Source: Antedon bifida
Lineage: Eukaryota > Echinodermata > Crinoidea > Comatulida > Antedonidae
DNA: 64,000 bases
Direction of reading: 5' to 3'
Assembly (NCBI GenBank): GCA_963402885.1
Contig: OY727099.1
Location: forward strand, 18,495,001-18,559,000
The position numbers and the translations under genes were made by a program. The notes under the pieces were generated by a model that was not told the DNA's origin, made no database searches, and worked only from the letters and a program-made list of their open reading frames with translations. Position 1 is the stretch's first letter. The number at the start of each line of letters is the position of its first letter. Of this stretch, positions 5,125 through 64,000 are shown in pieces.

Positions 5125-8095
5125 CTATATGTTATCTTGTCTGCTATAGGGGGCAAACTTGCAGAAGGAAGTAGACAAGTAATTTTCCAGCCTTGACTTG
5201 AACTGGTTGATTGAGTCAGATTCTATGACGGTTAACGGTAATTTGTTCCATACATTGCATATATTTTGAGTAAAGAACTTTTGTCTAATTCTTAGATGAG
5301 ATATGTCTTTATTCATTTTCCATTTATGGCCTCTTGTTCTGGACTCTCCTACAAAAGTAAACAGATTTCTGGCATCTATATTATCAATATGACTACAAAT
5401 TTTAAAAACCTCAATTAGAGCAGATCTCAGCCTTCTGAAATAAAGAGTAGGTAGTTGTAGTTGTTTCAATCTATCCTGATAAGTATCTCTTCTAATTCCT
5501 GGCACAAAACGGGTTGCTCTCTGTTGCACTTTTTCAAGCTTGTCTGACTCTTTGTGATATATATGTTGCCAAACAGGACTGCAATACTCGATTGACGGCC
5601 TGATTATGGTTTTATACAGCTGCATGAAAGAATAGTTATCGAGATAATGAAACGTTCGTTTTATCATTCCTAATTTTCTGTTTGCCATTGAAGCCTTCTG
5701 TGCAACATGTAATCCAAAGGACAATTTATTATCAAGTATGATTCCCAAATCTGTTATTGATTCCACTGATTGAATTGGAATTCTTCTTTACCCATATGAT
5801 AGATAACTTTCCTATTCCTTCTTCCAAAATGCATAATTTTACATTTCATTAAGTTGAAAGGAAGTTGCCATTTCTCAGACCATTCAAATAATTTATTCAG
5901 ATCTTCCTGTAATCCATTTGATTCTTCCACACTGTTCACCAAATTGAACATTTTGGTATCATCTGCAAAAATGTTTACTTTTGAACTAACTCCATCAGGG
6001 ATATCATTAATAAATATATTGAACAGTGCAGGACCAAGCACACTGCCCTGTGGAACTCCACTACTAACTCGCAGGCTTTCTGAATGAACTCCATTTAACA
6101 CCACTTGTTGTGACCGTCCAGAAATAAATGCTCTAATCCAATTTAATAAATTTCCTCCAATGCCATACGCCTGTAATTTGTTTAGCAGTCTTTCATGTGG
6201 TACACTGTCAAATGCTTTTTTGAAATCTAGAAAGATGCAATCAAAACATTGACCCTCTTCAAACCATTTGGTCCATTGTTCTAAAACTTCAATCATCAAA
6301 GTGGTACATGAACGACCTGATCTAAAGCCATGTTGATGAGTAGAAAAAAGGTGATTGACTTCCATATGATTCATCAAGGCATTTCTTACAAACGTCTCCA
6401 TGCATATTATAGATGTAAGGCTGACTGGTCTGTAATTTAGGGGGTCTGATTTTTTACCCTTCTTAACAATTGGCACTACTTTGGCTTGTTTCCATGAATT
6501 TGGTAGAACTCCATTATCCACTAATTTTGAAAACAGATCTTGTAAAATAGGGCTAAGTTCACTACTTAGTTCTTTGAGCACTCTTGAATGTATTCCATCG
6601 GGTCCAGGAGACTTGCAGATATCCAGGCGCCGTAAATAAGATTCTATATCTGTTGTTGAGAATTTCACAGTAACCAATTCGGGGCCAGAGAAGCGGGATG
6701 GTAAGTCAGGAACATTAAGAACATCCTCTAACGTAAAAACTGAAGCAAAGGCTTTATTGAACACTTTTGCTTTCCCATAATCATCTGACACCATCTCCCC
6801 TAGATTATTTTCCACACACGCAATATCTAGTCTCGATTTTGTTTTGCTTTGTACATATTTCCAAAAGTTCTTAGGGTTCACTTTTATTTCTGTGGCAATT
6901 TTAGTTTCATAACTCTTTTTTTCTTGCTTTACTAATCCTGTAACAAAATTTCGTTGCTTAACATAATTATTCCATGAGTTTTCATCTCGCTTTTTTTGGA
7001 ATCGGTTCCACAATTTATGTTTTAGATTGATCTCCTTTTTTAGCTCGATATTTACCCACTCCTTCCTATTTAATAGTCTCTTTTTCCGTAACGGCACATA
7101 TTTCTCAACACATATATTAATAGCTTTTTCAATCTTCTGAGATAACTCTTCACCCGTTGCGTCAAGACATTCCTCCTTGATATTAAAATTTGAAAACTCT
7201 TCTCTTATTTTATCGTAATTGGCTTTATAGTAATTCCTCATATATGGTATTTCACGTTCCTTTATACCCTCTTTAATCTTCAATTTGAATATAATTACAG
7301 CATGGTCGCTTTTACCAATAGGAGGAAATATTTCCAGATCATCAATTACGTTCTCAGCCTTTGATAACACTAAATCCAATAGATTGGCTTCTTGATTAAT
7401 ACGAACTCTTGTAGGTTCTCTTACATATTGAGTCCAAAATATGTCTTCTACAGTTTCCAAGAAAAGCGCACTCTCTTGTTGTTCTCCACCTAAAATCATA
7501 GAATTATCCCAGTCGATATTACCGAAGTTAAAATCTCCTACCACTATTGTGTTGTCTCTTGAAAGTTTATCTGCTTTTAAGAGCATTTCTCTTAATAGTG
7601 TATTATTATCCTTACAACTGTTTGGGCTACGGTAAATACACCCAATTAAAGTGTTATCATTATTAATTTTAAGATCCACCCAGACTGCCTCTTTAAAGTT
7701 TCCAATAGATACTTCTGTAACGGGTATACCTTCTCTAACATAAATGCCAATACCTCTTCCTGTGTATTGCCAGACCAAAAAAACTGAAAACCTTCTATTT
7801 CAAATTCCTCACGCTGAATTTCTGATAGTGAACGCTTAGGAAGAATCTCACATAATAAAACAACGTCTGGATTAACTTTCTTGATTATAATTAATAGCTC
7901 TTCTCTTTTATTCAGTAAGGAATCAGTGTTCGAATATATAAACTTAATTTCAGCTTTTTTAATTGATAACTTCTCATCTAACTTTTTCTTAAGAATTGTT
8001 TCTTTTTGATTAATAACGGAAATTTCTTCTTGAACTGTACCTGTAGTGTCTCTCAGATAATTAGGGGCGAAAACGCCCTTTAACAATCTTGCCAT
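5125..8095 (-). pseudogene. LINE ORF2: endonuclease + reverse transcriptase, two frameshifts
   Basis: Encodes the enzyme for target-primed reverse transcription. Segment 8095-7646 begins the endonuclease (NTDSLLNKREEL). A frameshift near 7745-7775 moves to 7778-5754, with GIGIYVREG, GDFNFGNIDW and SDHAVIIF (endonuclease core), then RT blocks SPGPDGIHSRVLKEL, NYRPVSLTS, HGFRSGRSC, FLDFKKAFDSVPH, SSGVPQGSVLGP and catalytic NIFADDTKMF. A second shift near 5755-5785 leads to 5766-5125 with the conserved thumb/C-terminal region (LGIILDNKLSF, RPSIEYCSPVW). Summed length is about 1,000 residues, normal for CR1/L2. Only the two single frame changes disable it. Confidence 0.85.
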
Positions 8096-8918
8096 TTCTA
8101 ATAATTAAATCATTTTCACCCGTCTCTTGTCTCTCTTTTAGCTTAGTCCATAAGTCTCTTCGCTCTGCCCTCTCAGACTGTGTACGATCTCTTGAAATCT
8201 GTACATTACTCTGGGTACCAGCTTTCCGTATTCTTAATAAAATCTCATTACTCATGAAACTTGTTTGAAAAACTACTTTGAGAGGCCTGACTTTACCTTC
8301 TACTTGCTTACCAAGTCGATAAAGAGTTATTATGTTGTAATCTAAGTCCTTAACAACACCTTTTATAATTGTTTTTATTGCCTCCATATCTTCCTCCTTC
8401 CTCTCCTGAGCTTCCTCTTCCTTAGATTCAGGTATTAAGAAAAATATTAAATTGTTCATTCTTGCCTGCCTCTCCTGAATTTCATCAATGCAAAGTTTAA
8501 TAGTTTCATTAGCATTTTTTACACTGCCTTTCGGTTCCTCTATCTTGGCTAGCAAATCTCTATAGTTCTCCTCACATTTACTTTTATTCTCTAGCAAACC
8601 AACTTTAATGTCCTCCATTTCTTTAACTATCCTATCCTGATTTGTTCTTAGAGTATTTATGTTACCAAGTACATCCTCTGCTGCTTTATTGCAGGTTCTA
8701 CAATACCAATGTAAATTGGGATTATCTTCGCTTATAACTTCATACAGCCTTTTAGAAACTTGTTGGCATTGTGAGTGAAACCAGAATTTACAAAACTCGC
8801 ACTCAATTCCTCTATCAGAGTCAGCCACCAATTTATTACAGCTACCACATAAATCACCTGCCACTCCTACTGCATTGTCTCCCTTGTCCACTACTACCTT
8901 ACTGCTGGTCTTCCTCAT
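8061..8918 (-). CDS. LINE ORF1 protein with PHD-type zinc finger and coiled coil
   Basis: A 285-residue intact frame starting at 8918. Residues about 22-80 form a PHD/C4HC3-type finger with CGSC, CEFC, HSQC and CRTC pairs in order. Residues about 85-160 are rich in heptad-like Leu/Ile/Glu/Lys and probably coil. A basic C-terminal half includes a VRPLKVVFQTSF segment, as in the RNA-binding-like domain of CR1-type ORF1 proteins. Such proteins package LINE RNA and act as chaperones. The stop overlaps the ORF2 start by about 35 nt, suggesting coupled translation. It is mobile-element, not host, coding sequence. Confidence 0.8.
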   Translation of the reverse strand: MRKTSSKVVVDKGDNAVGVAGDLCGSCNKLVADSDRGIECEFCKFWFHSQCQQVSKRLYEVISEDNPNLHWYCRTCNKAAEDVLGNINTLRTNQDRIVKEMEDIKVGLLENKSKCEENYRDLLAKIEEPKGSVKNANETIKLCIDEIQERQARMNNLIFFLIPESKEEEAQERKEEDMEAIKTIIKGVVKDLDYNIITLYRLGKQVEGKVRPLKVVFQTSFMSNEILLRIRKAGTQSNVQISRDRTQSERAERRDLWTKLKERQETGENDLIIRNGKIVKGRFRP

Positions 8919-8990
8919 GGTTGCTGGCCTAGCAAAATATCTAGTTTAAATCTCACTTAGAATAGACAATCAATTACAATCGCTCTCCAA

Positions 8991-20937: not shown

Positions 20938-21563
20938 TGTAAATGAAATTGTTCTTGTTACGTGAAAAGTGAAAAACGTTGAAACTTATGGAACGCCTCC
21001 TCTGCCTTCAGTTCACATTCATGCAGTACACACCAATCGTCATGCAGTACACACCAATGGCCATGCAGTACACACCAATGGCCATGCAGTACACACCAAT
21101 CGTCATGCAGTACACACCAAACATCATGCAGTACACGTGCAGTGCATGACGATTGGTGTGTACTGCATGACGATTGGTGTGTACTGCATGACGATTGGTG
21201 TGTACTGCATGACGATTGGTGTGTACTGCATGACCATTGGTGTGTACTGCATGACCATTGGTGTGTACTGCATGACGATTGGTGTGTACTGCATGATGTT
21301 TGGTGTGTACTGCATGACGATTGGTGTGTACTGCATGACGATTGGTGTGTACTGCATGACCATTGTTGTGTACTGCATGACCATTGTTGTGTACTGCATG
21401 ACGATTGGTGTGTACTGCATGACGATTTGTGTGTACTGCATGATAAATGTAAACTGAAGGCAGAGGAGGCGTTCCATAGAAACTCGCCCAACGTGATCGT
21501 GCGTTTTTTCACTTCCGTTCACGTAATAAGGTACAAGGTAGGTAAGTAATAATTTCATTTACA
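20938..21563. mobile_element. Foldback element 1: inverted 21-bp minisatellite
   Basis: Outer inverted repeats TGTAAATGAAATT (20938-20950) and AATTTCATTTACA (21551-21563) enclose a second pair (GGAACGCCTCCTCTGCCTTC near 20990 and its complement near 21456). Inside are five 21-bp units ATGCAGTACACACCAATSRTC from 21021. The array then flips at about 21136 into fourteen units of the reverse complement (GCATGACGATTGGTGTGTAC) from 21144 to 21438. Spacing is exactly 21 bp throughout. The whole can form a long cruciform. Open frames on both strands are the repeat read in frame (21 is a multiple of 3) and are not proteins. Confidence 0.85.
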
Positions 21564-21669: not shown

Positions 21670-22395
21670 GGATATTCACCCCCTGGACATTTACCCCCCG
21701 GAAAACTACCCCCCCGGACAACCACCACCTGGACAACTACCCCCTTAGGACAACTACCCCTTTAGGACAACTACCCCCCGGACAACTACCCCCCGGACAA
21801 CTACCCCCTTAGGACAACAACCCCCTTAGGACAACTACCCCCTGAACAACTACCCCCGGACAATTACCCCCTAGGAACAATTACCCCCCGGACAATTACC
21901 CCCCCCCCCCCCCTCCCCGGGTAATTACCCCGCGGACAACTAATATACGAAAAGGGAGACCCAAATATAGGTCTCCCTTTTCGTATTGGGTCTCGTGTCA
22001 GGTCTCTGGTCTCGGGTCTCTAGTTTCGAAACACCCGTTAAAAACAGATGATTTCATTTTTACAGAAACCGGTCCTATATATTTGTCTACTTTTGGATTG
22101 GGGGGGGGGGGGTAGTTGTCCTGGGGTATTTGTCCTGGGGGTAGTTGTCCTAAGGAAGGGGGTAGTTGACCGGGGGTAGTTACCCGGGGGGTAGTTATCC
22201 TAAGGGGGTAGTTGTCCTAAGGGGTAGTTGTCCGGGGGGTAGTTGTCCGGGGGGTTGTTATCCTAAGGGGGTAGTTGTCCTAAGGGGGTAGTTGTCCGGA
22301 GAGTAGTTGTCCGGGGGGTAGTTGTCCTAAGGGGGTAGTTGTCCGGGTGGTAAACATCCGGGGGGTAACTGTCTAGGGGGTAGGTGTCCTAGAAC
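21670..22395. mobile_element. Foldback element 2: inverted arrays of a GGACAACTACCCCC unit
   Basis: About 21670-21940 carries roughly 15-bp units (CC)GGACAACTACCCC, some with a CTTA insertion. About 22105-22395 carries the reverse complement TAGTTGTCCGGGG(G) in matching variants. Between them, at 21946-21985, is a perfect 16-bp stem (TACGAAAAGGGAGACC and its complement) with an 8-nt loop, then about 115 bp of GGTCTC-rich sequence. The layout resembles the TU foldback family of sea urchins, whose termini are tandem repeats of about 15 bp. Confidence 0.8.
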
Positions 22396-24548: not shown

Positions 24549-27400
24549 AAAAACAGAATCCAATCGGTTAAACGGCGACTTGGTATTTGCACTTTCCAAC
24601 TTTTAAATATATTTTTACCCGTGACACGTTCTCTCGCTTGAAATTTGTACTTGTATCGGTATGACCCACCCGTCTTCAGTGGTCACTGAACTTCTAGTAA
24701 ATAAATATAAATTATAAATGTGTGGGAATATCCTGCGACTCAAAGACTACTGGACTGAATTATGCGGACAACACATTTGTCTATCTGTCATTCAAACAAA
24801 ACATAGTTTGTAGTCGCTGCCTATATATTGCACATTCGTGCTGGTGATTCGTTAATTTTATTTTAACAAGTGACAAAATGAAAACCAGTTTCAGTTCACC
24901 TCGGTGTTGACTGAATGAAAAATCGACGTAATAAAGTTCATTTGTGCGCACATAATTTGTTTTTGTTTGTTTTTTTTTTCGTCTAAAATCCTATTTACTA
25001 CTTCAACATGGTGTATGCATTTCATAAAGTTGTTGACAATTATTTTGCAGGTTGTTGCCAGTTGAAGAAAATTTTCTAAAACAATTCCAGGTATTTAAAA
25101 ATCACAACTATTTGTTTTATATGTTTATTTGAGGGAGGCGTTCTTTTGATGTAATATAGTAACATTATAATCAAACAAATACCCCTAGATATGAAACAAT
25201 GCTATATACATATACATATACATATACATGGCTGCAGTCGCGTGCGCAAATTTGAATTAGTGTTTACCGACCGACCGACATAGTGGGCTATAGACTAAAA
25301 AATGACTAACGACTAAAAATACAACACAATTAATATCAAGGAGTGATAAATTACAATAAAAATTGTATAAAAATGCTTGGTAAATTGAAGATCATGCCAA
25401 TCAATGAATTCTACTACAAATAAAAATGTGTTGTAATACGATATTTTGGTACAGTATATATCAAAGATATTATAGCCGGCTTATTTCGCCTCTCTTGTAT
25501 ATACGCATGTGGCGTCAAAATGATGTTCTATAGGGACGTTTATACGGAGGGTTTATTCGAATAAATACGGTATACAATATTTAACTATATCCAAATCCTA
25601 GGAATACCCCATGATACTTTATATCAAAGAAACGTCTAGTTTCTGACGTTAAATGACGGAACTACAATACATTTTTAAATTAAAGATTTTGAAAACTAAC
25701 GAATAATTTTCTTGGCTTATTTTTATTTTTCTATATAAGCTGAAAGTATTAGCATGCACTGTTGTTGAATAAAAAAAAAATACATAGTTCTTATTTTACA
25801 TTTTATACAAATTCAATTTATTTTTTAGAATGTAAGCTTGACTGAATTCGAAGCAATATTTCAACATTATGATTACGTAAGCCTTTTTTTGCACTAATAT
25901 TTTTTCGCTCTAAGTATTGATAATAATATTAGTTTGTTTTTTAATTTTTGGATTAGTTTAGATTTGTATTATTTGTTTATTTATAGAATAATGATAATAC
26001 AATTAAAGGAGATGAAATAACGGCATTTGTCAAAGATGTTATGAATGCACAGGGGTTAACAGTAAGTACCAACTAATTATGGGCACATCAGTGTTGCTGC
26101 ATTGTTTAAAAAACCAATCTCATGACATGTGTTTGTTGCATTTGAATATAGACTACGTAGTGAGCAAAAGAAAAAAAATATATGATCAATTGACCGTCAA
26201 GTTACTTTTAGACAGTTGTATCGGCTTCCAAGAGTCGCTGTTGTATTGTATATGTACTGTTTTAGGCCTAGATTTGATATTCAATTTGTTGGCTCTTATG
26301 TAGTGTTTTAGGCCTAGATTTGATATTCAATTTGTTGGCTCTTATGTAGTGTTTTAGGCCTAGATTTGATATTCAATTTGTTGGCTCTTATGTAGTGTTT
26401 TAGGCCTAGATTTGATATTCAATTTTTTGGCTCTTATGTAGTGTTTTAGGCCTAGATTTGATATTCAATTTGTTGGCTCTTATGTAGTGTTTTAGGCCTA
26501 GATTTGATATTCAATTTGTTGGCTCTTCTGTAGTGTTTTAGGCCTAGATTTGATATTCACTTTTTTGGCTCTTATGTAGTGTTTTAGGCCTAGATTTGAT
26601 ATTCAATTTGTTGGCTCTTATGTAGTGTTTTAGGCCTAGATTTGATATTCAATTTGTTGGCTCTTATGTAGTGTTTTAGGCCTAGATTTGATATTCAATT
26701 TGTTGGCTCTTCTGTAGTGTTTTAGGCCTAGATTTGATATTCACTTTTTTGGCTCTTATGTAGTGTTTTAAGCCTAGATTTGATATTCACTTTTTTGGCT
26801 CTTATGTAGTGTTTTAGGCCTAGATTTGATATTCAATTTGTTGGCTCTTATGTAGTGTTTTAGGCCTAGATTTGATATTCAATTTGTTGGCTCTTATGTA
26901 GTGTTTTAGGCCTAGATTTGATATTCACTTTTTTGGCTCTTATGTAGTGTTTTAGGCCTAGATTTGATATTCAATTTGTTGGCTCTTATGTAGTGTTTTA
27001 GGCCTAGATTTGATATTCAATTTGTTGGCTCTTATGTAGTGTTTTAGGCCTAGATTTGATATTCAATTTGTTGGCTCTTATGTAGTGTTTTAGGCCTAGA
27101 TTTGATATTCAATTTTTTGGCTCTTATGTAGTGTTTTAGGCCTAGATTTGATATTCAATTTGTTGGCTCTTTAATCAAAATACTCCCTCTCTTGTTGAGA
27201 ATAAAAGTATGGCAGTAATAATTGTTGTATCGCTGCCATCCTTTGATCCTACTGAAAGAGATTTAAACCTTGGTGTTTTTCATTTACTTCTTTTGCAGAC
27301 TGCCGAAATGAAAGACATCGAAATCCACGATGCATGCATTAAAGATCTGTATGGCGGAGTATTACAGAAAGAAAAGTTTAAGACTCTGCTATTAAATTAG
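22796..27400 (+). CDS. Calbindin/calretinin-family EF-hand protein, last eight exons (5' end not found)
   Basis: Cytosolic Ca2+ buffer/sensor of the six-EF-hand calbindin family. Exons: 22796-22871, 22956-23012, 23317-23397, 23882-23937, 25051-25090, 25829-25876, 25987-26061 and 27299-27400 (stop TAG 27398-27400). All have AG/GT borders and matching phases. The product starts after EF-hand 2 (TKEILEKF). EF3 loop DTDKSNFIEAKE and EF4 loop DMNNDGKFSIHE have canonical ligands, followed by the family linker LLPVEENFLKQFQ. EF5 loop DYNNDNTIKGDE is also canonical. EF6 is degenerate, as in vertebrate calbindin. The C-terminus is YGGVLQKEKFKTLLLN. About 178 residues are visible of the usual 260-270; EF1-2 exons must lie upstream. 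The last intron is expanded by a 46-bp satellite. Confidence 0.88.
24518..24551. repeat. (GAAA)n microsatellite
   Basis: About eight AAGAAAG-type tetranucleotide units in intron 4 of the calbindin-family gene. Confidence 0.85.
25200..25228. repeat. (ATATAC)n microsatellite
   Basis: About four CATATA hexamers in intron 5 of the calbindin-family gene. Confidence 0.8.
26258..27172 (+). repeat. 46-bp satellite, 20 copies, in the last calbindin-family intron
   Basis: AGGCCTAGATTTGATATTC recurs every 46 bp from 26264 to 27138, giving 20 units. Variants (CACTTTTTT for CAATTTGTT, TTCTGTAG for TTATGTAG) repeat in blocks, e.g. the CTTCTGTAG/CACTTTTTT pair near 26527-26565 and 26710-26750, so there is higher-order duplication. 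Each unit contains GGCTCTTATGTAG and GTGTTTTAG, both resembling weak 3' splice sites. The true acceptor (TTCTTTTGCAG) lies 125 bp past the array. Confidence 0.92.
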
Positions 27401-33415: not shown

Positions 33416-35624
33416 TAGTCCATGGGATTTAGCTAAAAAATGACCCTTTTCTCACACAAATTGCAAGAAAAGGTTTTTTTGATGAAATGTGTTCTTTAGA
33501 CCCTACTGAACACATTTATCAACGTTAGGACATTTTTCGACAACAGGAAGTAGCCTAATTTGCATAATTAAAAATGGCCGCCATTTTTAATAACGTACTC
33601 TGTATCTTGGAAACCGCTAGTCACAGATACTTAATTATGGTGTCAAAATCGTTAGAATATATGTTTTTATATTCACTTTATTGAAAAAGTTTGTCCAAAA
33701 ATGAATGAAAGTGCTATTTCTAACATTATTGACCTTGACCTTGAATTCTCATATCTCAGCAACCACTAATCGGAGATATACAAATTAGGGCTTAAATTGT
33801 TCAGAAACTACACATTTATATCCAGTCTAATAGCATGTTTTTGCAAATAATGGCCGATTCTAACATTATTGACCTTTGACCTTGATTTATCATATCTTAG
33901 CAACCACTAATCTGAGAGACACACAATATGGCTCAAACTGTTCAGAAACTACATATTTATATTTAGTCTAATGGCATGTTTTTGCAAAAAATGGCCGATT
34001 CTAACATTATTGACCTTTGAACTTTGCACTACATAAAATCGCATAACTTTGAAAATATTGTACATATGAAATTATTTTTAGTGTCAAATTGTTCAGAACA
34101 TACATGTTTCTATAGAGTCCAATGACACATTATGTCCAATAATGGCCTATTGTATGGTTATTAACATTTGAACTATATTTGAAAAAGATTTAAACCCGGA
34201 ATCTTCTTCATGTGGACATCCATTAGAACATGTAATTTGGCACTCTAAAATGTAAGAGTTGCAACGTTGACTTATTATGTTTAGTTTAAAGTAGGCCATG
34301 GTACATTAAATGTATAAGCATAAACTATTGCATTCATTCATAAACTGCCTACAAGTTTACACGTTTGTTTATTTTATTTCTTATCGTCTTCGCAGCGAAG
34401 CTGAATTACAAGATATTTATATTATAGCATTAAAATGATGGTTAAAAAAATAGTAAAAATTAAACCACATAGAAACATGGTACATACACAATAAATTCAC
34501 GTAAAAAAAGTACAAAAACAAATTATAAAAGGTTAAAAACTATACACCACTAGTAGTCATACTGTATATGGTTATTGAAATAAATAAATTCCATAAGAAA
34601 CTGAGGTTTTTACTGCATATGGCGAAAATATTGCAAGTGGTGGTCAGCCTATTTATGAGTCTCGATAGCCAATTAATTAAACTAAACTAAATATGTTGCA
34701 TTAATATCGACCTTTTAAAATTCCAGTTGTCAACAATGCGTCTAGTAGTAGAAAAGGCCTTATTAATAAGACTATGTTTCAACCTAAAAGAATGCCCTCA
34801 AGAGTGATGCTATCCTTACTGTACATGCACTTTAAATTACCACCATATTCTAAACAAGAAGTGCCAAATCACATGTTTTAATGAATGCCTACATGAAGAA
34901 GATTCCGGGTTTAAAAATCCTTTTCAAATATAGTTCAAATGTTAATAACCATACAATAGGTCATTATTGGACATAATGTGTCATTGGACTCTATAGAAAC
35001 ATGTATGTTCTGAACAATTTGACACTAACAAAGGTCAATAATGTTAGAATCGGCCATTTTTTTGCAAAAACATGCCATTAGACTAAATATAAATATGTAG
35101 TTTCTGAACAGTTTGAGCCATATTGTGTGTCTCTCAGATTAGTGGTTGCTAAGATATGATAAATCAAGGTCAAAGGTCAATAATGTTAGAATCGGCCATT
35201 TTTTACAAAAACATGCCATTAGACTGGATATAAATGTGTAGTTTCTGAACAATTTAAGCCCTAATTTGTATATCTCCGATTAGTGGTTGCTGAGATATAA
35301 TAAATCAAGGTCAAAGGTCAATAATGTTAGAAATAGCACTTCCATTCATTTTTGGACAAACTTTTTCATTAAAGTGAATATAAAAACATATATTCGAACG
35401 ATTTTAACACCATAATTAAGTATCTGTGACTAGCGGTTTCCAAGATACATAGTGCGTTATTAAAAATGGCGGCCATTTTTAATTATGCAAATTAGGCTAC
35501 TTCCCGTTGTCGAAAAATGTCCTAACGTTGATAAATGTGTTCAGTAGGGTCTAAAGAACACATTTCATCAAAAAAACCTTTTCTTGCAATTTGTGTGAGT
35601 TAAAAGTCTAAATCCCATGGACTA
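33416..35624. mobile_element. 2.2-kb element with 735-810-bp inverted termini
   Basis: The left arm (33416 to about 34225) starts TAGTCCATGGGATTTAG. The right arm (about 34889-35624) is its reverse complement ending CTAAATCCCATGGACTA. The arms differ by scattered bases and a deletion of about 65 bp in the right one. Each arm contains two to three internal repeats of about 140 bp around CATTATTGACCTTTGACCTT. GTG lies directly outside both ends (33413-33415 and 35625-35627), a possible 3-bp target duplication. The 660-bp centre has no transposase frame. Superfamily unknown. Confidence 0.8.
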
Positions 35625-36594: not shown

Positions 36595-39500
36595 TTAAAC
36601 GATTTCATCGTCTTTTCTTATACTTGGTGTTTCTGTGTAAAGTGAGATACTTCCTCTAGTTAGTGGACCAAGACTTCGAGGATGCTGTTGGTTCAAAAAT
36701 TGTGGCGCTATCTTGTTGTTTCGGAATCGATTTGAATCCATTTTGCTCTCTCCAAAGTCATCTTCTTCTCCAACAGCCAATGATTTTGATCTTTTCCGTA
36801 GATTGTGTTCTGAACATAACTGACTATGTGTTTCAGATTTTGCTCCATGTATATCAAGGCCAGACGTCACAACTTCCAACTCTGTCGCTACAATGTCTGT
36901 GTTTAAAACTACCATCAATTTTGGTTCTGGCTCTTGATCGCGTAAAAATTGTAATCTGTGGACATTTCTGTTAATAACACAAGGAGCAAATAACTCATCG
37001 CGTGAGTGTGCGTTTATTGCAGATCCCTGGATTAGTATTACATCGTCCATGGTGTCCTCGATGTCAAATACATAATTGCACTCTTTTAGATCCACTAAAA
37101 TAGACCTTTCTAGATGGAGCTTTACCTTCTCTTGTGTCCAACCCTAAAAATACATTAAAACCATTTATAATAACAATTAAGATGATTTATAACATTTTAC
37201 TCAATAATTGACTTGATTCTGGTCTAGGCCCGTTGCCACCTGGCCCTTTGCCACCCGGCCCATTGTCACCCAAACTGTTGCCACCCGGCCTATTGCCACA
37301 TTAGGCCTTTTGCCACCCGGCCTATTGCCACATTAGGCCTTTTGCCACCCAGGCTATTGCCACATTAGGCCTTTTGCTACCTAGGTCATTTGCCATCCGG
37401 CTATTTTCCACCCGGCCTGTTGCCACCCGGTCTGTTGCAACCCTGCCATTTGCCACCCGGCCTGTTGCCACCCTACCATGTGGCACCCAGCCATTTGCCA
37501 CCCGGTCTGTTACAAACTGGCGTAATTGCGACAAAGGAGCGTAGCGTCTCTGGGCTAATATATAGGTATATTATTTTTCCCGCTCTCAGTACAATTATTT
37601 GTGACTGGGAGAGCTAATTCATTAAACTTTTTGGATCCACCTGTCTAGTATACAATATTTTGGGATCTAAAATCACGATATAGAGATAATTAGGCCTTAT
37701 ATTTATTCTCATCCAGTTGAAATGCTACTGATTAATTTTAATTAAACAGTTGTTTTGAATTGTTTATACGAATTGTTTTGAGACATTAAATTGAAGATGC
37801 TGTATTTTTGTCCTGATGAAATCAGTAACGAAATCGGTATAATTGTATTTAGATAAATACAAACCATTAAGTGGTAAACAAGGTGGGCATACATGATATG
37901 TTACTTTAAAAACTTTCGGAATAGCCCAAAACTAAAACTACATTGATTTCTGTTTCTTAAACATTCTATTCTTGAATTGAGAGAACGGCGTCCATTTTAA
38001 TTTAATTGCAGGCCTAATTAAGAAGTGCAAATTACACTCACAGATTAAAAGCCGGGTGGCAAAGGGCCGGGTGGCAACAGGCCGGGTGGCAACAGGTCGG
38101 GTGGCAAATAGCCGGTGGCAAAAGGCCTAAGGTGGCAAAAGGCCTAAGGTGGCAAAAGGCCGGGTGGCAAAAGCCCAGGTGGCTGGCAGCCAGGTGGGAA
38201 TTGGCCGTGTGGCAATAGGCCGGTGGCTAAAATTCAACCAATCAAAAGCGATGCATTATCCGAAGTGGTGTTTTTTATTGGTCAAATCGCCTGTGTTGCG
38301 CTTACGCCCTTGCGTTGGAAAGAAAGCTTTAGTCAAGATCGATTTAGACAAAATTACAAAAGTTGATTGTAGGCATATACACTGAGTTATGTGATAAACA
38401 TTGTGTAAAATATGGAAACGGAAAACTTGGCGAAGTATCTATTCATTTAGTCAACATGTTGTTTAATATTGTGTATGGACAGAAATTTTAATTCTGAAGA
38501 ATGCATTCAATACTTTTACCTGATAGCTCATTTGTTCTAATAGCAATTGTGTTGCAATTCGAATTCCGCACACACGCCATAAACGACTTTCAAGCGATGG
38601 TTCCAATGTGAACGTGTCAATAGCAACATGCATGTCGTCCAAGTTGATATAATAAACCTTTTTGGAGTAAAGACATGTTTATTTTTATTGCGCCAACTTG
38701 ATAGTTTGGTTTCTATACTATAGTTTACAACACACACTATGCAATTCTCTAGTGTACTTTCTTTTATTTTCCGAATACCCGTATTATAAAACATGCAATT
38801 ATGTCAGTAATTTCAACACGAGAGAGGTTTTCTTGAGGGCCTAGTTAGTATCTTTTTGTGATCAGGCTAGTGTGTTTCTTGATCATCTTTGTACACTTTA
38901 TATAAAGATTTTTTTGTCGTATTTTCCCCTCAACAAACGTCTAATAGTCGACCAAATTCATTAGGTGAAGTGCATACCCCGCCTTTGTTTATTTATGAAT
39001 GAAATTCAAAATCATAGTTTGAACTATAGTACTTTTCAAGTCGTACTGTAGTTATTTTGTAGGTATAATACTGGCTAGTGTATTTATCAAATTGCAATAT
39101 ATTCCTTTAGACTTACTAGAATCAAATCAAATTCATTTAACTATCATTCCTTACCAGTACAGATGTTTCACATGTAACTGTTGCATTTCTAGGCTTTCCA
39201 GTCAAAAGACCCATTTCACCAATGACGTTACCGGCTGTAAGATAGTCTTCAAACACGTCAGTTGCTCCTCTATTGATTGATGCCAGCGTTTGCTGATGTT
39301 CGTGGTCTAGGTTTTCAGTCGACCCCAATAACTAAAGCAACAAAGAAAAATATAGGCCTAAATAATTATTTATTCGGTACGTTTTAAATATAAGTAAGCA
39401 TACACAAACTCTATACAAAACTCTATACGTATCTAAAAATGAGAAAGGAAAAGTATTTTAGAATTATTGAAAAATGAAATATGTACAATAACCATAGATA

Positions 39501-57960: not shown

Positions 57961-58027
57961 GGTTTACATTGAGAAACTCTCCACCGGTCATTTATAGGTC
58001 AGCTTTGATATTGTTCCATTCTAAAAA

Positions 58028-59630
58028 TGCATCGTCCGGAAATTTTACACGGATCCACGTGTGGCAGAACCACCGACGCTACACGTGATTAGTTCATAAT
58101 AACCTTTCATTTATAGGTCAGCTTTGATATTGTTCCATTCTAAAAATGCATCAGCCGGGAATTTTACCCGGATTTCATGTGTGGCGAGAATTCTACCACT
58201 GAACCACCGATTCTACACGAGCAAGCTTCATAATCACTGGTAAGTCCTAGGTCATCTTTGATATTATTCCATTACAAAACTGCATCGTCCGGTGAACCCG
58301 GGTCCCCGCGTGGCAGGTGAGAATTCTACCACTGAATCACCGATGCTACTCGTGTATAGTTCATAATCACCGGTCATTTATAGGTCAGCTTTGATATTTT
58401 TCCATTACAAAACAGCATCGTCCGCCGAGAAGTGAACACGGGTCCCTGCGTGGCAGGCGAGAATTCTACCACTGAACCACCGATGCTAGCCGTATATGCT
58501 TTATACTCACTGGTCAGTCCTAGGTCAGCTTTAATATTGTTCCATTCTAAAAATGCATCGTCCGGGAATTTTACACGGATCCACGTGTGGCAGAACCACC
58601 GACGCTACACGTGTATAGTTCATAATAACCGGTCATTTATGGGTTAGCTTTGATATTGTACCATTCTAAAAATGCATCGGCCGGGAATTTTACCCGGATA
58701 CGTATGGCAGGCGAGAATTCTAAAACAGAACCACCGATGCTACACGTATATGTTTTACAACCGGGAACTAAACCCGGGTCCCCGCATGGCAGGCGAGAAT
58801 TCTACCACTGAACCACCGATTCTACACGAATATGCTTCATAATCACTGGTCAGTCCAAGGTCATCTTTAATATTATTCCATTACAAAACTGCATCGTCCG
58901 GGAAGTGAACCCGGGTCCCCCTCGTGGCAGGCGAGTATTCTACCAATGAATCACCTATGCTACACGTATATGCTTTATAATCACTGGTCAGTCCTAGGTC
59001 ATCTTTAATTTTATTCCACTACAAAACTGCATCGTCGGGGAAATGAACCCGGGTCCCCCTCATGGCAGGCGAGAATTCTACCACTGAATCACCGATGCTA
59101 CACGTATATGCTTTATAATCACCGGTAATTTATAGGTCAGCTTTGATATTGTTCCATTCTAAGAATGCATTGGCCTAGAATTGAACCCGGGTCCCCGCAT
59201 GGCAGGCGAGAATTCTACCACTGAACCACCGATTCTACACGAATATGCTTCATAATCACTGGTCAGTCCTAGGTCATCTTTAATATTATTCCATTACAAA
59301 ACTTCATCGTCCGGGAATAGAACCCGGATCCCCCGCGTGGCAGGCGAGAATTCTACCACTGAATCACCGATGCTACACGTATATGCTTTATAATCACCGG
59401 TAATTTATAGGTCAGCTTTGATATTGTTCCATTCTGAATGCATCGACCGGGAATTTTACACGGATCCACGTGTGGCAGAACCACCGACGCTACACGTGTA
59501 TAGTTCGTAATAACCGATAGTTTATAGGTCAGCTTTGATATTGTTCCATTCTAAAAATGCATCGGCCGGGAATTTTACCCGGATACGTGTGGCAGGCGAG
59601 AATTCTAAAACAGAACCACCGATGCTACAC
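58028..59630 (-). pseudogene. Older, mutated block of tRNA-Gly-derived units
   Basis: Units start near 58029, 58148, 58282, 58412, 58554, 58674, 58758, 58891, 59028, 59166, 59303, 59438 and 59559. Those at 58029, 58554 and 59438 have lost the D-arm segment. 58282, 58412, 58758, 59166 and 59303 have acceptor or T-arm damage. 58891 and 59028 are near-intact but mismatched in the acceptor. Several have T4, not T5, downstream. Confidence 0.75.
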
Positions 59631-59692
59631 GTGTATAGTTCATAATCACCGGTCATTTATAGGTCAGCTTTGATATTATTCCATTCTAAAAA

Positions 59693-59762
59693 TGCATCGG
59701 CCGGGAATTGAACCCGGGTCCACGCGTGGCAGGCGAGAATTCTACCACTGAACCACCGATGC
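59693..59762 (-). tRNA. tRNA-Gly (GCC)-like, one base short
   Basis: One base missing next to the anticodon stem/variable loop (GCGTGGACCC). Boxes A and B intact. Perhaps transcribed but imperfect. Confidence 0.5.
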
Positions 59763-59892
59763 TACACGAATTTGCTTCATAATCACTTGTGGCAGGCAAG
59801 AATTCTAAAACAGAACCATCGATGCTACACGTGTATAGTTCATAATCACCGGTCAGTCCTAGGTCACCTTTGATATTATTCCATTCTAAAAA

Positions 59893-59963
59893 TGCTTCGG
59901 CCGGGAATTGAATCCGGGTCCCCCGCGTGGCAGGCGAGAATTCTACCACTGAACCACCGATGC
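59893..59963 (-). pseudogene. tRNA-Gly-like with acceptor and T-stem mismatches
   Basis: GAAGC for GATGC in the acceptor and GGATT for GGGTT in the T arm disrupt pairing. Anticodon GCC retained. Confidence 0.6.
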
Positions 59964-60165
59964 TACACGAATATGCTTCATAATCACTGGTCAGTCCTAG
60001 GTCACCTTTGATATTATTCCATTATAAAAATGCATCGGCCGGGAATTTTACCCGGATACGTGTGGCAGGCAAGAATTCTAAAACAGAACCACCGATGCTA
60101 CACGTATATAGTTCATAATCACCGGTCATTTATAGGTCAGCTTTGATATTATTCCATTCTAAAAA

Positions 60166-60236
60166 TGCATCGGCCGGGATTCGAACCCGGGTTCCCTGCG
60201 TGGCAGCCGAGAATTCTACCACTGAACCACCGATGC
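60166..60236 (-). pseudogene. tRNA-Gly-like with broken anticodon stem
   Basis: CTCGG/GCAGG cannot pair fully around the GCC loop. T loop TTCGAAT and box A look good, so it may be transcribed yet fold poorly. Confidence 0.55.
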
Positions 60237-60440
60237 TACACGTATATGTTTTACAATCACCGTTTATTATAGGTGAGCTTCGATATTGTTCCATTATAAA
60301 AATGCATCGGCCGGGAATTTTACCCGGATTCCAAGTGTGGCAGGTGAGATTTCTAAAACAGAACCACCGATGCTACATGTGTATAGTTCATAATAACCGG
60401 TCATTTATAGGTCAGCTTTGATATTATTCCATTCTAAAAA

Positions 60441-60511
60441 TGCATCGGCCGGGAATTGAACCCGGGTCTCTCGCGTGGCAGGCGAGAATTCTACCACTGA
60501 ACCACCGATGC
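60441..60511 (-). tRNA. tRNA-Gly (GCC), perfect anticodon stem variant
   Basis: Differs from consensus only in the anticodon-stem/variable region, where CTCGC pairs perfectly with GCGAG. Boxes A and B and the terminator are intact. Probably functional. Confidence 0.85.
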
Positions 60512-60708
60512 TACACGAAAATGCTTCATAATCACTGGTCAGTCCTAGGTCACCTTTGATGTTATTCCATTATAAAAATGCATCGGCCTGATACCCGGAT
60601 ACGTGTGGCAGGCAAGAATTCTAAAACAGAACCACCGATGCTACACGTGTATAGTTCATAATCACCGGTCATTTATAGGTCAGCTTTGATATTATTCCAA
60701 TCTAAAAA

Positions 60709-60779
60709 TGCATCGGCCGGGAATTGAACCCGGGTCCCCCGCGTGGCAGGCGAGAATTCTACCACTGAACCACCGATGC
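60709..60779 (-). tRNA. tRNA-Gly (GCC)
   Basis: Full cloverleaf: acceptor GCATCGG/CCGATGC with discriminator A, box A TGGTTCAGTGG, anticodon loop CTGCCAC in a CTCGC/GCGGG stem, and T arm CCGGGTTCAATTCCCGG (box B). T5 terminator directly downstream. Confidence 0.92.
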
Positions 60780-60981
60780 TACACGAATATGTTTCATAAT
60801 CACTGGTTAGTCCTGGGTCACCTTTGATATTATTTCATTATAAAAATGCATCGGCCGGGAATTTTACCCGGATACGTGTGGCAGGCAAGAATTCGAAAAC
60901 AGAACCACCGATGCTACACGTGTATAGTTCATAATCACCGGTCATTTATAGGTCAGCTTTGATATTATTCCATTCTAAAAA

Positions 60982-61052
60982 TGCATCGGCCGGGAATTGA
61001 ACCCGGGTCCCCCGCGTGGCAGGCGAGAATTCTACCACTGAACCACCGATGC
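60982..61052 (-). tRNA. tRNA-Gly (GCC)
   Basis: Identical to the gene at 60709-60779; all stems, both promoter boxes and T5 terminator intact. Confidence 0.92.
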
Positions 61053-61259
61053 TACACGAATATGCTTCATAATCACTTGTCAGTCCTAGGTCACCTTTGA
61101 TTATTATTCCATTATAAAAATGCATCGGCCGGGAATTTTACCCGGATACGTGTGGCAGGCAAGAATTCTAAAACAGAACCACCGATGCTACACGTGTATA
61201 GTTCATAATCACCAGTCATTTATAGGTAGGTCAGCTTTGATATTATTCCATTCTAAAAA

Positions 61260-61330
61260 TGCATCGGCCGGGAATTGAACCCGGGTCCCCCGCGTGGCAG
61301 GCGAGAATTCTACCACTGAACCACCGATGC
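61260..61330 (-). tRNA. tRNA-Gly (GCC)
   Basis: Identical to the consensus gene, with intact boxes A and B and a T5 terminator. Confidence 0.92.
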
Positions 61331-61397
61331 TACGCGAATATGTTTCATAATCACTGGTTAGTCCTGGGTCACCTTTGATATTATTTCATTATAAAAA

Positions 61398-61468
61398 TGC
61401 ATCGGCCGGGAATTGAACAAGGGCCCCCCGCGTGGCAGGCGAGAATTCTACCACTGAACCACCGATGC
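61398..61468 (-). pseudogene. tRNA-Gly-like with damaged T stem
   Basis: CCCTTGTTC replaces CCCGGGTTC, breaking the T stem next to box B. Other parts match the consensus. Confidence 0.6.
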
Positions 61469-61670
61469 TACACGAATATGCTTCATAATCACTGGTCAGT
61501 CCTAGGTCACCATTGATATTATTCCATTATAAAAATGCATCGGCCGGGAATTTTACCCGGATACGTGTGGCAGGCAAGAATTCTAAAACAGAACCACCGA
61601 TGCTACACGAATATGCTTCATAATCACTGGTCAGTCCTAGGTCACCTTTGATATTATTCCATTATAAAAA

Positions 61671-61741
61671 TGCATCGGCCGGGAATTGAACCCGGGTCCA
61701 CCGCGTGGCAGGCGAGAATCCTACCACTGAACCACCGATGC
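61671..61741 (-). tRNA. tRNA-Gly (GCC), variant
   Basis: TAGGATTC replaces TAGAATTC after the D arm, and the anticodon stem closes C-T (CTCGC/GCGGT). Promoter boxes and acceptor are intact. Functionality uncertain. Confidence 0.7.
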
Positions 61742-61947
61742 CACACGAATATGCTTCATAATCACTGGTCAGTCCTTGGTCACCTTTGATATTATTCCAT
61801 TATAAAAATGCATCGGCTTGAAATTTTACCCGGATACGTGTGGCAGGCAAGAATTCTAAAACAGAACCACCGATGCTACACGTGTATAGTTCATAATCAC
61901 CAGTCATTTATAGGTAGGTCAGCTTTGATATTATTCCATTCTAAAAA

Positions 61948-62018
61948 TGCATCGGCCGGGAATTGAACCCGGGTCCCCCGCGTGGCAGGCGAGAATTCTA
62001 CCACTGAACCACCGATGC
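61948..62018 (-). tRNA. tRNA-Gly (GCC)
   Basis: Identical to the consensus gene. Counterpart of 62498-62568 in a 550-bp duplication. Confidence 0.92.
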
Positions 62019-62220
62019 TACACGAATATGCTTCATAATCACTGGTCAGTCCTAGGTCACCATTGATATTATTCCATTATAAAAATGCATCGGCCGGGAA
62101 TTTTACCCGGATACGTGTGGCAGGCAAGAATTCTAAAACAGAACCACCGATGCTACACGAATATGCTTCATAATCACTGGTCAGTCCTAGGTCACCTTTG
62201 ATATTATTCCATTATAAAAA

Positions 62221-62291
62221 TGCATCGGCCGGGAATTGAACCCGGGTCCACCGCGTGGCAGGCGAGAATCCTACCACTGAACCACCGATGC
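62221..62291 (-). tRNA. tRNA-Gly (GCC), variant
   Basis: Same variant as 61671-61741, its partner in the 550-bp duplication. Confidence 0.7.
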
Positions 62292-62497
62292 CACACGAAT
62301 ATGCTTCATAATCACTGGTCAGTCCTTGGTCACCTTTGATATTATTCCATTATAAAAATGCATCGGCTTGAAATTTTACCCGGATACGTGTGGCAGGCAA
62401 GAATTCTAAAACAGAACCACCGATGCTACACGTGTATAGTTCATAATCACCAGTCATTTATAGGTAGGTCAGCTTTGATATTATTCCATTCTAAAAA

Positions 62498-62568
62498 TGC
62501 ATCGGCCGGGAATTGAACCCGGGTCCCCCGCGTGGCAGGCGAGAATTCTACCACTGAACCACCGATGC
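62498..62568 (-). tRNA. tRNA-Gly (GCC)
   Basis: Identical to the consensus gene; second copy in the 550-bp duplication. Confidence 0.92.
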
Positions 62569-62635
62569 TACGCGAATATGTTTCATAATCACTGGTTAGT
62601 CCTGGGTCACCTTTGATATTATTTCATTATAAAAA

Positions 62636-62706
62636 TGCATCGGCCGGGAATTGAACCCGGGTCCCCCGCGTGGCAGGCGAGAATTCTACCACTGAACCAC
62701 CGATGG
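62636..62706 (-). tRNA. tRNA-Gly (GCC)-like, first base changed
   Basis: Matches the consensus except that position 1 is C, so the first acceptor pair is lost. Processing may be affected. Confidence 0.5.
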
Positions 62707-62910
62707 CATACGTATATGTTTTACAATCACCGTTCATTATAGGTGAGCTTCGATATTGTTCCATTATAAAAATGCATCGGCCGGGAATTTTACCCGGATT
62801 CCAAGTGTGGCAGGTGAGATTTCTAAAACAGAACCACCGATGCTACATGTGTATAGTTCATAATAACCGGTCATTTATAGGTCAGCTTTGATATTATTCC
62901 ATTCTAAAAA

Positions 62911-62981
62911 TGCATCGGCCGGGAATTGAACCCGGGTCCCCTGCGTGGCAGGCGAGAATTCTACCACTGAACCACCGATGC
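62911..62981 (-). tRNA. tRNA-Gly (GCC)-like, one anticodon-stem mismatch
   Basis: GCAGG replaces GCGGG, giving one C-A mismatch in the anticodon stem. Boxes and terminator intact. Confidence 0.55.
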
Positions 62982-63301
62982 TACACGAAAATGCTTCATA
63001 ATCACTGGTCAGTCCTAGGTCACCTTTGATATTATTCCATTATAAAAATGCATCGGCCGGGAATTTTATCCGGATACGTGTGGCAGGCAAGAATTCTAAA
63101 ACAGAACCACCGATGCTACACGTGTACAGTTCATAATCACCGGTCATTTATAGGTCATCTTTGATATTATTCCATTCTAAAAATCCAGGTTCCCTGCGTG
63201 GCAGGCAAGAATTCTAAAACAGAACCACCGATGCTACACGTGTATAGTTCATAATCACCGGTCATTTATAGGTCAGCTTTGATATTATTCCATTCTAAAA
63301 A

Positions 63302-63372
63302 TGCATCGGCCGGGAATTGAACCCGGGTCCCCCGCGTGGCAGGCGAGAATTCTACCACTGAACCACCGATGC
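63302..63372 (-). tRNA. tRNA-Gly (GCC)
   Basis: Identical to the consensus gene, with T5 terminator. Confidence 0.92.
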
Positions 63373-64000
63373 TACACGTATATGTTTTACAATCACCGTT
63401 CATTATAGGTGAGCTTCGATATTGTGCCATTATAAAAATGCATCGACCGGGAATTTTACCCGGATTCCAAGTGTGGCAGGAGAGATTTCTAAAACAGAAC
63501 CACCGATGCTACATGTGTATCGTTCATAATAACCGGTCATTTATAGGTCAGCTTTGATATTATTCCATTCTAAAAATGCATCGGCCGGGAATTGAACCCG
63601 GGTTCCCTGCGTGGCGGGCAAGAATTCTAAAACAGAACCACCGATGCTACACGTGTATAGTTCATAATCACCGGTCATTTATAGGTCAGCTTTGATATTA
63701 TTCCATTCTAAAAATGCATCGGCCAGGAATTGAACCCGGGTTCCCTGCGTGGCAGGCAAGAATTCTAAAACAGAACCACCGATGCTACACGTGTATGTTT
63801 TACAATCACCGTTCATTATAGGTGAGCTTCGATATTGTTCCATTATAAAAATGCATCGGCCGGGAATTGAACCCGGATTCCAAGTGTGGCAGGAGAGATT
63901 TCTAAAACAGAACCACCGATGCTACATGTGTATAGTTCATAATAACCGGTCATTTATAGGTCAGCTTTGATATTATTCCATTCTAAAAATGCATCGGCCG

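Follow-up and report, generated by a model that had tools for sequence, protein, structure and literature searches.

A partly alternating tandem array of intact and degenerate tRNA-Gly(GCC) copies in Antedon bifida, probably shaped by unequal exchange

The 64-kb window of the Antedon bifida genome analysed here (C12:18,495,001-18,559,000) ends in a tandem array of tRNA-Gly(GCC) genes where, over part of its length, intact copies alternate with degenerate copies whose internal promoter boxes for RNA polymerase III (Pol III) are damaged. The array is very probably a satellite-like set of gene-pseudogene repeats that was spread by unequal exchange. According to the proposed scenario, one or more gene copies would have lost their promoter boxes, blocks of two to four units containing both live and dead copies would have been duplicated through unequal crossing-over and conversion, and the dead unit would have spread as a passenger, giving rise to the gene-pseudogene repeats. 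The structure is real, and it was partly over-read in the initial annotation of this region: partial alternation is present, whereas a uniform, designed degenerate element is not, and the pattern suggests ordinary turnover of repeats, not a new device. All positions below are coordinates within the window, and units are named by position. The main features are:

57982..64000, minus strand: whole tandem array of 45 units, running to the window end
57982..59489, minus strand: array edge, 12 more diverged units (from the unit split and box states)
57982..59489, minus strand: composition of these edge units, namely seven intact-like units, three short degenerate units (58078, 58604, 59489), one with degenerate A and B boxes (58739) and one with an intact A and a degenerate B box (58212)
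59490..63115, minus strand: alternating stretch of 27 intact and degenerate units, with 24 of 26 neighbours switching
60709..60779, minus strand: example of the commonest intact tRNA-Gly(GCC), 64.3 bits, seven identical core bodies
62086..62153, minus strand: example of degenerate form D1, 135-bp unit, four identical core bodies
62773..62843, minus strand: example of degenerate form D2, 137-bp unit, 24.8 bits (Rfam)
63577..63922, minus strand: three hybrid units with a degenerate A and an intact B box (63646, 63784, 63921)
61425..62571, minus strand: two overlapping copies, exact over 597 bp at a 550-bp shift, four units

The array consists of 45 head-to-tail units on the minus strand, each with a tRNA gene or its relic, that extend from a low-coordinate edge at about 57,982 up to the window limit at 64,000, with the opposite end located beyond this limit. 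This number was obtained after rejoining three units that had been cut in two, and the unit length is 135-142 bp in 36 cases. Across the whole window, ARAGORN predicts 20 tRNA genes, including 19 Gly(gcc) genes and one with an odd anticodon, and the Rfam tRNA family RF00005 yields 23 matches at its gathering score (up to 69.9 bits, with six of them at 64.3 bits); both counts take in some hybrid units. Tandem Repeats Finder (TRF) reports periods of 138 and 273 bp in the array. The tandem array of tRNA-Gly(GCC) genes that was initially proposed is confirmed. The tRNA unit at 60,166-60,236 (minus strand) has an altered base in the anticodon arm, and ARAGORN gives its anticodon as gcca.

The Pol III boxes were scored against A- and B-box consensus motifs. 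Both boxes are intact in 21 of the 45 units and degenerate in 13. Three further units have a degenerate A box with the B box deleted or cut (63233, 60640 and 59824), and three hybrids combine a degenerate A box with an intact B box (63921, 63784 and 63646). The A region is deleted and the B box degenerate in three short forms, while an intact A box is accompanied by a damaged B box in 59962 and by a degenerate B box in 58212.

Within part of the array, intact and degenerate units alternate far beyond chance. By the A-box state, 26 of 32 neighbours switch among the 33 units from 63921 to 59624 (shuffle mean 16.4, P = 0.00036), and 24 of 26 switch among the 27 units between 63115 and 59624 (P = 1e-5), the upper limit of the latter range having been picked after inspection. 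The lower limit of both ranges corresponds to the point, at about 59.5 kb, from which alternation was originally said to start. This description holds for 59,624-63,115 and fails above 63.1 kb; non-random alternation was found only for 59,624-63,921, and it breaks down above 63.1 kb and below 59.6 kb. On average, units two apart are more similar (mean distance 0.102 at lag 2) than direct neighbours (0.142 at lag 1). The dimer signal is therefore present but not dominant, since lags 4 (0.103) and 9 (0.098) are about as low as lag 2.

In the consensus of the commonest intact body, both boxes agree with their motifs at 11 of 11 positions each, and all four stems pair. Intact members have an A box, a B box and a T-run terminator (a run of five T residues), which makes Pol III transcription of these copies probable. 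The two main degenerate forms, D1 and D2, described here by their consensus sequences, reach at best 8 of 11 positions for the A box and 9 of 11 for the B box, contain TTTT within the D loop, and have lost three (D1) or four (D2) of the five anticodon-stem pairs; the D stem is whole in D1 and keeps three of its four pairs in D2. With both boxes damaged and an internal TTTT, neither form has an internal Pol III promoter of its own, and for the same reason the degenerate copies are probably silent passengers. The initial annotation spoke of one particular degenerate form, and omitted the broken anticodon stem and the D-loop TTTT; the array contains D1 and D2 as main forms, plus hybrids and truncations.

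The reported loss of both boxes with survival of the acceptor and T stems fits the consensus of D1 and D2, where both stems pair, and applies less well unit by unit. In the core of the array, defined as the units above 59.6 kb (18 degenerate and 15 intact), the five T-stem pairs all form in only 12 degenerate units, compared to 13 intact ones, and the six tested acceptor pairs all form in 16 and 14 units, respectively. Further body deletions occur in 63233 and 60640, i.e., in two of the 15 distinct degenerate units, and 59824 is truncated. This truncated unit is the only exception among the 33 core bodies to the presence of ATTTTTA directly 3' of the body.

In the Rfam search, no D1 body appears among the tRNA matches at E ≤ 1, a single D1 unit searched alone has no tRNA match at E ≤ 10, and three D2 units score 21.1-24.8 bits against the tRNA model, under the cut-off of 29. 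Other Rfam matches (mascRNA, plastid ycf2 and a viral pseudoknot) were rejected, as they score below their cut-offs and either overlap tRNA bodies or could be due to chance. Minimum-energy folding gives no cloverleaf for the intact, D1, D2 and short forms, and a cloverleaf-like structure for a hybrid composite sequence; folding z-scores against shuffles are -1.9 (intact), -2.5 (D1), -2.2 (D2), -4.0 (hybrid composite) and -0.9 (short form). These results carry little weight because the intact gene itself misfolds.

The degenerate form was initially described as uniform across about a dozen copies, which we do not observe. The 18 degenerate core units represent 13 distinct bodies, the commonest of which occurs in four units, and the 15 intact core units represent eight, the commonest occurring in seven. 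Divergence between D1 (135-bp unit, nine copies) and D2 (137-bp unit, three copies) amounts to 7.7% in the body and 21.5% in the spacer. By raw diversity, bodies vary less than spacers, both within the degenerate class (0.048 vs 0.137, P = 0.0004) and within D1 alone (0.028 vs 0.086, P = 0.003). The body values are lowered by construction because the classes were defined by body sequence. We attribute the difference, without proof, to these body-defined classes together with exchanged spacer types.

Private changes were counted in 26 distinct core units, with exact duplicates collapsed, 59824 left out and gapped positions not subtracted. The degenerate units have 6 changes in the body vs 14 in the spacer over 1035 positions each (P = 0.11), or 6 vs 10 over 966 positions (P = 0.45) when the edge unit 59624 is omitted. 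The intact units have 10 changes in the body vs 2 in the spacer over 759 positions each (P = 0.038, on small numbers), opposite to what is expected for selected genes. The test has little power, as selection went undetected in the intact genes, where some is expected. Degenerate bodies have lower raw diversity than their spacers and private changes that are not significantly rarer, both on small numbers; these results do not establish any special conservation of the degenerate form. The initial annotation held that copies diverging as freely as their spacers would be plain pseudogenes; the private changes agree with such divergence, while raw diversity points in the opposite direction.

These data bear on the possibility that selection keeps the degenerate units because they have a function within the dimer, as a fixed-length spacer between Pol III genes, a barrier element, or a source of a tRNA-like RNA or of 3' fragments. 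The non-random alternation, the acceptor stem that pairs completely in 16 of the 18 degenerate core units, the T5 run that follows all but one of the 33 core bodies and the body diversity below that of the spacer would all agree with such a role, and, with the exception of the alternation, they also weigh against the passenger scenario, as do the reversed ratio of private changes in the intact units and the potential of the hybrid composite to fold as a cloverleaf. We nevertheless consider a functional dimer very improbable. There are 13 kinds of body among 18 degenerate units; T-stem pairing is incomplete in six of them, and deletions and one truncation occur; the bodies show no significant deficit of private changes relative to the spacers; both boxes are damaged, and the TTTT could terminate a transcript early; and alternation is gone at both ends of the observed stretch. 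Slightly less credible still is a maintained promoter-less tRNA-like element, on which RNase P, tRNase Z or other tRNA-binding factors would act in read-through transcripts via the acceptor and T stems, or which would set the spacing of Pol III genes. The role of spacer, decoy or 3' fragment source suggested at first finds no support in the sequence analysed. Should the degenerate half be expressed, it would represent a new type of tRNA-like gene.

Spread by unequal exchange agrees with the non-random alternation and with the way in which blocks of units recur. A search for repeats of at least 250 bp within the array, made with an exact-seed script, identified a 597-bp stretch that recurs without mismatch at a shift of 550 bp, or four units, which suggests a recent four-unit duplication. 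Three more repeats of 295-334 bp have 3-7 mismatches at shifts of 666-2470 bp; the repeat of 334 bp with three mismatches has a lag of 1238 bp. Multi-unit blocks are thus present as copies of high identity. A single homogeneous dimer does not extend throughout the array, which has two main degenerate forms, hybrids, truncations and mosaic spacers.

A whole-unit tree built by a quick method for 43 units (without 59824 and 58821) requires 3 changes between the intact and degenerate labels, compared to a shuffled mean of 14.4, and none of 500 shuffles is as low. One of the three changes is due to 58212, which was scored as intact in the initial labels and lies within a degenerate group; 23 of the 34 inner forks are weak. 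The degenerate units fall into two separate groups, and D1 adjoins intact units. The 3' spacer type is linked to the body class (10 ATAAA to 5 GGACT for intact units and 1 to 9 for D1, Fisher P = 0.012), although incompletely; the D2 unit 60372 was misassigned in this typing, which leaves the comparison of intact units with D1 unaffected. Given the incomplete spacer link, the two tree groups and the exact four-unit copy, turnover seems to involve blocks of several sizes rather than one dimer. The initial proposal that the dimer is the unit being homogenised therefore holds in part: alternation, label clustering and the D1-spacer link speak for it, and the partial nature of this link, the two tree groups and the copied four-unit block speak against it.

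Intact bodies are more diverse among the seven units below 59.5 kb (0.114) than among the 14 units above it (0.031). The hybrids, the mosaic spacers and this diverged edge are consistent with unequal exchange that acts mostly in the core, and we infer that exchange is the cause of the pattern. Exchange between units would also be expected to yield the partial link of body class to spacer type, the two degenerate tree groups and the A/B hybrids. In the edge units 58821, 59097 and 59234, CATG is found where intact core units have CACG, a change of the type that CpG decay would produce.

We also searched the genome (315.6 Mb, 27 contigs) with 478 bp of the array, which gave a list of 18 matches, restricted to the best candidates and without the array's own locus. 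The matches listed include longer and older-looking ones (77-80%) at C12:7.46, 7.57 and 18.447 Mb and five weaker or partial ones. Another eight, 71-75 nt long, cover the intact gene alone at 99-100% identity. Six of these eight, all at 100% identity, are located at C12:20,010,289-20,015,495, and the other two at C10:9.782 and 9.790 Mb. The short near-exact matches indicate that the intact body equals tRNA-Gly copies elsewhere that have other flanks. An alternative that we consider improbable is that the working tRNA-Gly genes reside elsewhere, for example in the 20.01-Mb cluster, and that the whole array, including its intact copies, is a tRNA-derived satellite with no part in translation. 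The six perfect matches would agree with this alternative, as would the lack of any sign of copy-by-copy selection in the intact core units (10 body vs 2 spacer changes), but mere redundancy would likewise relax the selection acting on individual copies, and the commonest intact body has both boxes, four stems and 71 nt identical to genes elsewhere. A long-unused satellite is unlikely, because the intact body has been kept letter for letter over these 71 nt.

The preferred reading, a gene-pseudogene array spread by unequal exchange, has counterparts in known systems, and a literature search found no description of this array itself, which does not prove that none exists. By analogy, the array closely resembles the gene-pseudogene unit of Xenopus 5S DNA and the position-biased minor and tRNA-like copies of the Arabidopsis SYY cluster. 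In Xenopus laevis 5S DNA, Jacq, Miller and Brownlee (1977; cited in PMC9274356) reportedly found a Pol III gene together with its pseudogene in a tandem unit; in that account the gene encodes 5S rRNA and the repeat consists of the pair, whereas the array contains tRNA genes and alternates over only a part of its length in the window. The SYY (tRNA-Ser/Tyr/Tyr) cluster of Arabidopsis is reported to have its main form mostly at Y2 (about 80%), its minor forms chiefly at Y1 (about 60%), and 13 tRNA-like copies among 54 clustered Tyr genes (PMC12308677). It shares with the array the tandem arrangement, a core enriched in the main form, flanks where minor forms and pseudogenes are more frequent, and a position bias, and differs, as it is described there, in having three genes of two isotypes per unit and introns in the Tyr genes, compared to one isotype and a short unit in the array.

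In the cited account of Pollicipes 5S rDNA, tandem dimers link a 5S monomer to a putative truncated pseudogene (PMC3215682), although only two such dimers are reported there and they concern 5S rRNA rather than tRNA. In the tRNA-Cys cluster on Arabidopsis chromosome 5, tandem units of the same isotype are accompanied by a conserved pseudogene (PMC10701932), which, in that description, sits before the first repeat without alternation, unlike in the array. The tandem units of Entamoeba tRNA arrays are ascribed chiefly to concerted evolution (PMC2652664); the authors found no clear sign of pseudogene copies there, and units contain up to five tRNA genes. The tRNA variable-number tandem repeat at human 1q23.3 is described as a homogeneous tandem tRNA array (PMC4041453) with a 7.3-kb unit of five tRNA genes, unlike the short units found here. 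The array is probably a compact, well-resolved case of a dead gene copy reaching a large share of a tRNA array via turnover alone, and a caution that regular spacing and alternation are by themselves not evidence of function.

The rest of the window contains other repeats. Foldback-like structures are located at 21,019-21,443, 21,678-22,390, 33,550-35,500 and 37,227-38,231; their inverted arms are up to 98% complementary and are themselves tandem repeats, with units of 21, 15, 141 and 15 bp. A 46-bp satellite at 26,251-27,171 has 20 copies with 97% matches, and a 115-bp tandem repeat at 240-674 has 3.8 copies with 96% matches. Pieces of a non-long-terminal-repeat retroelement on the minus strand at 5,125-8,945 include a PHD finger, an endonuclease and a reverse transcriptase.

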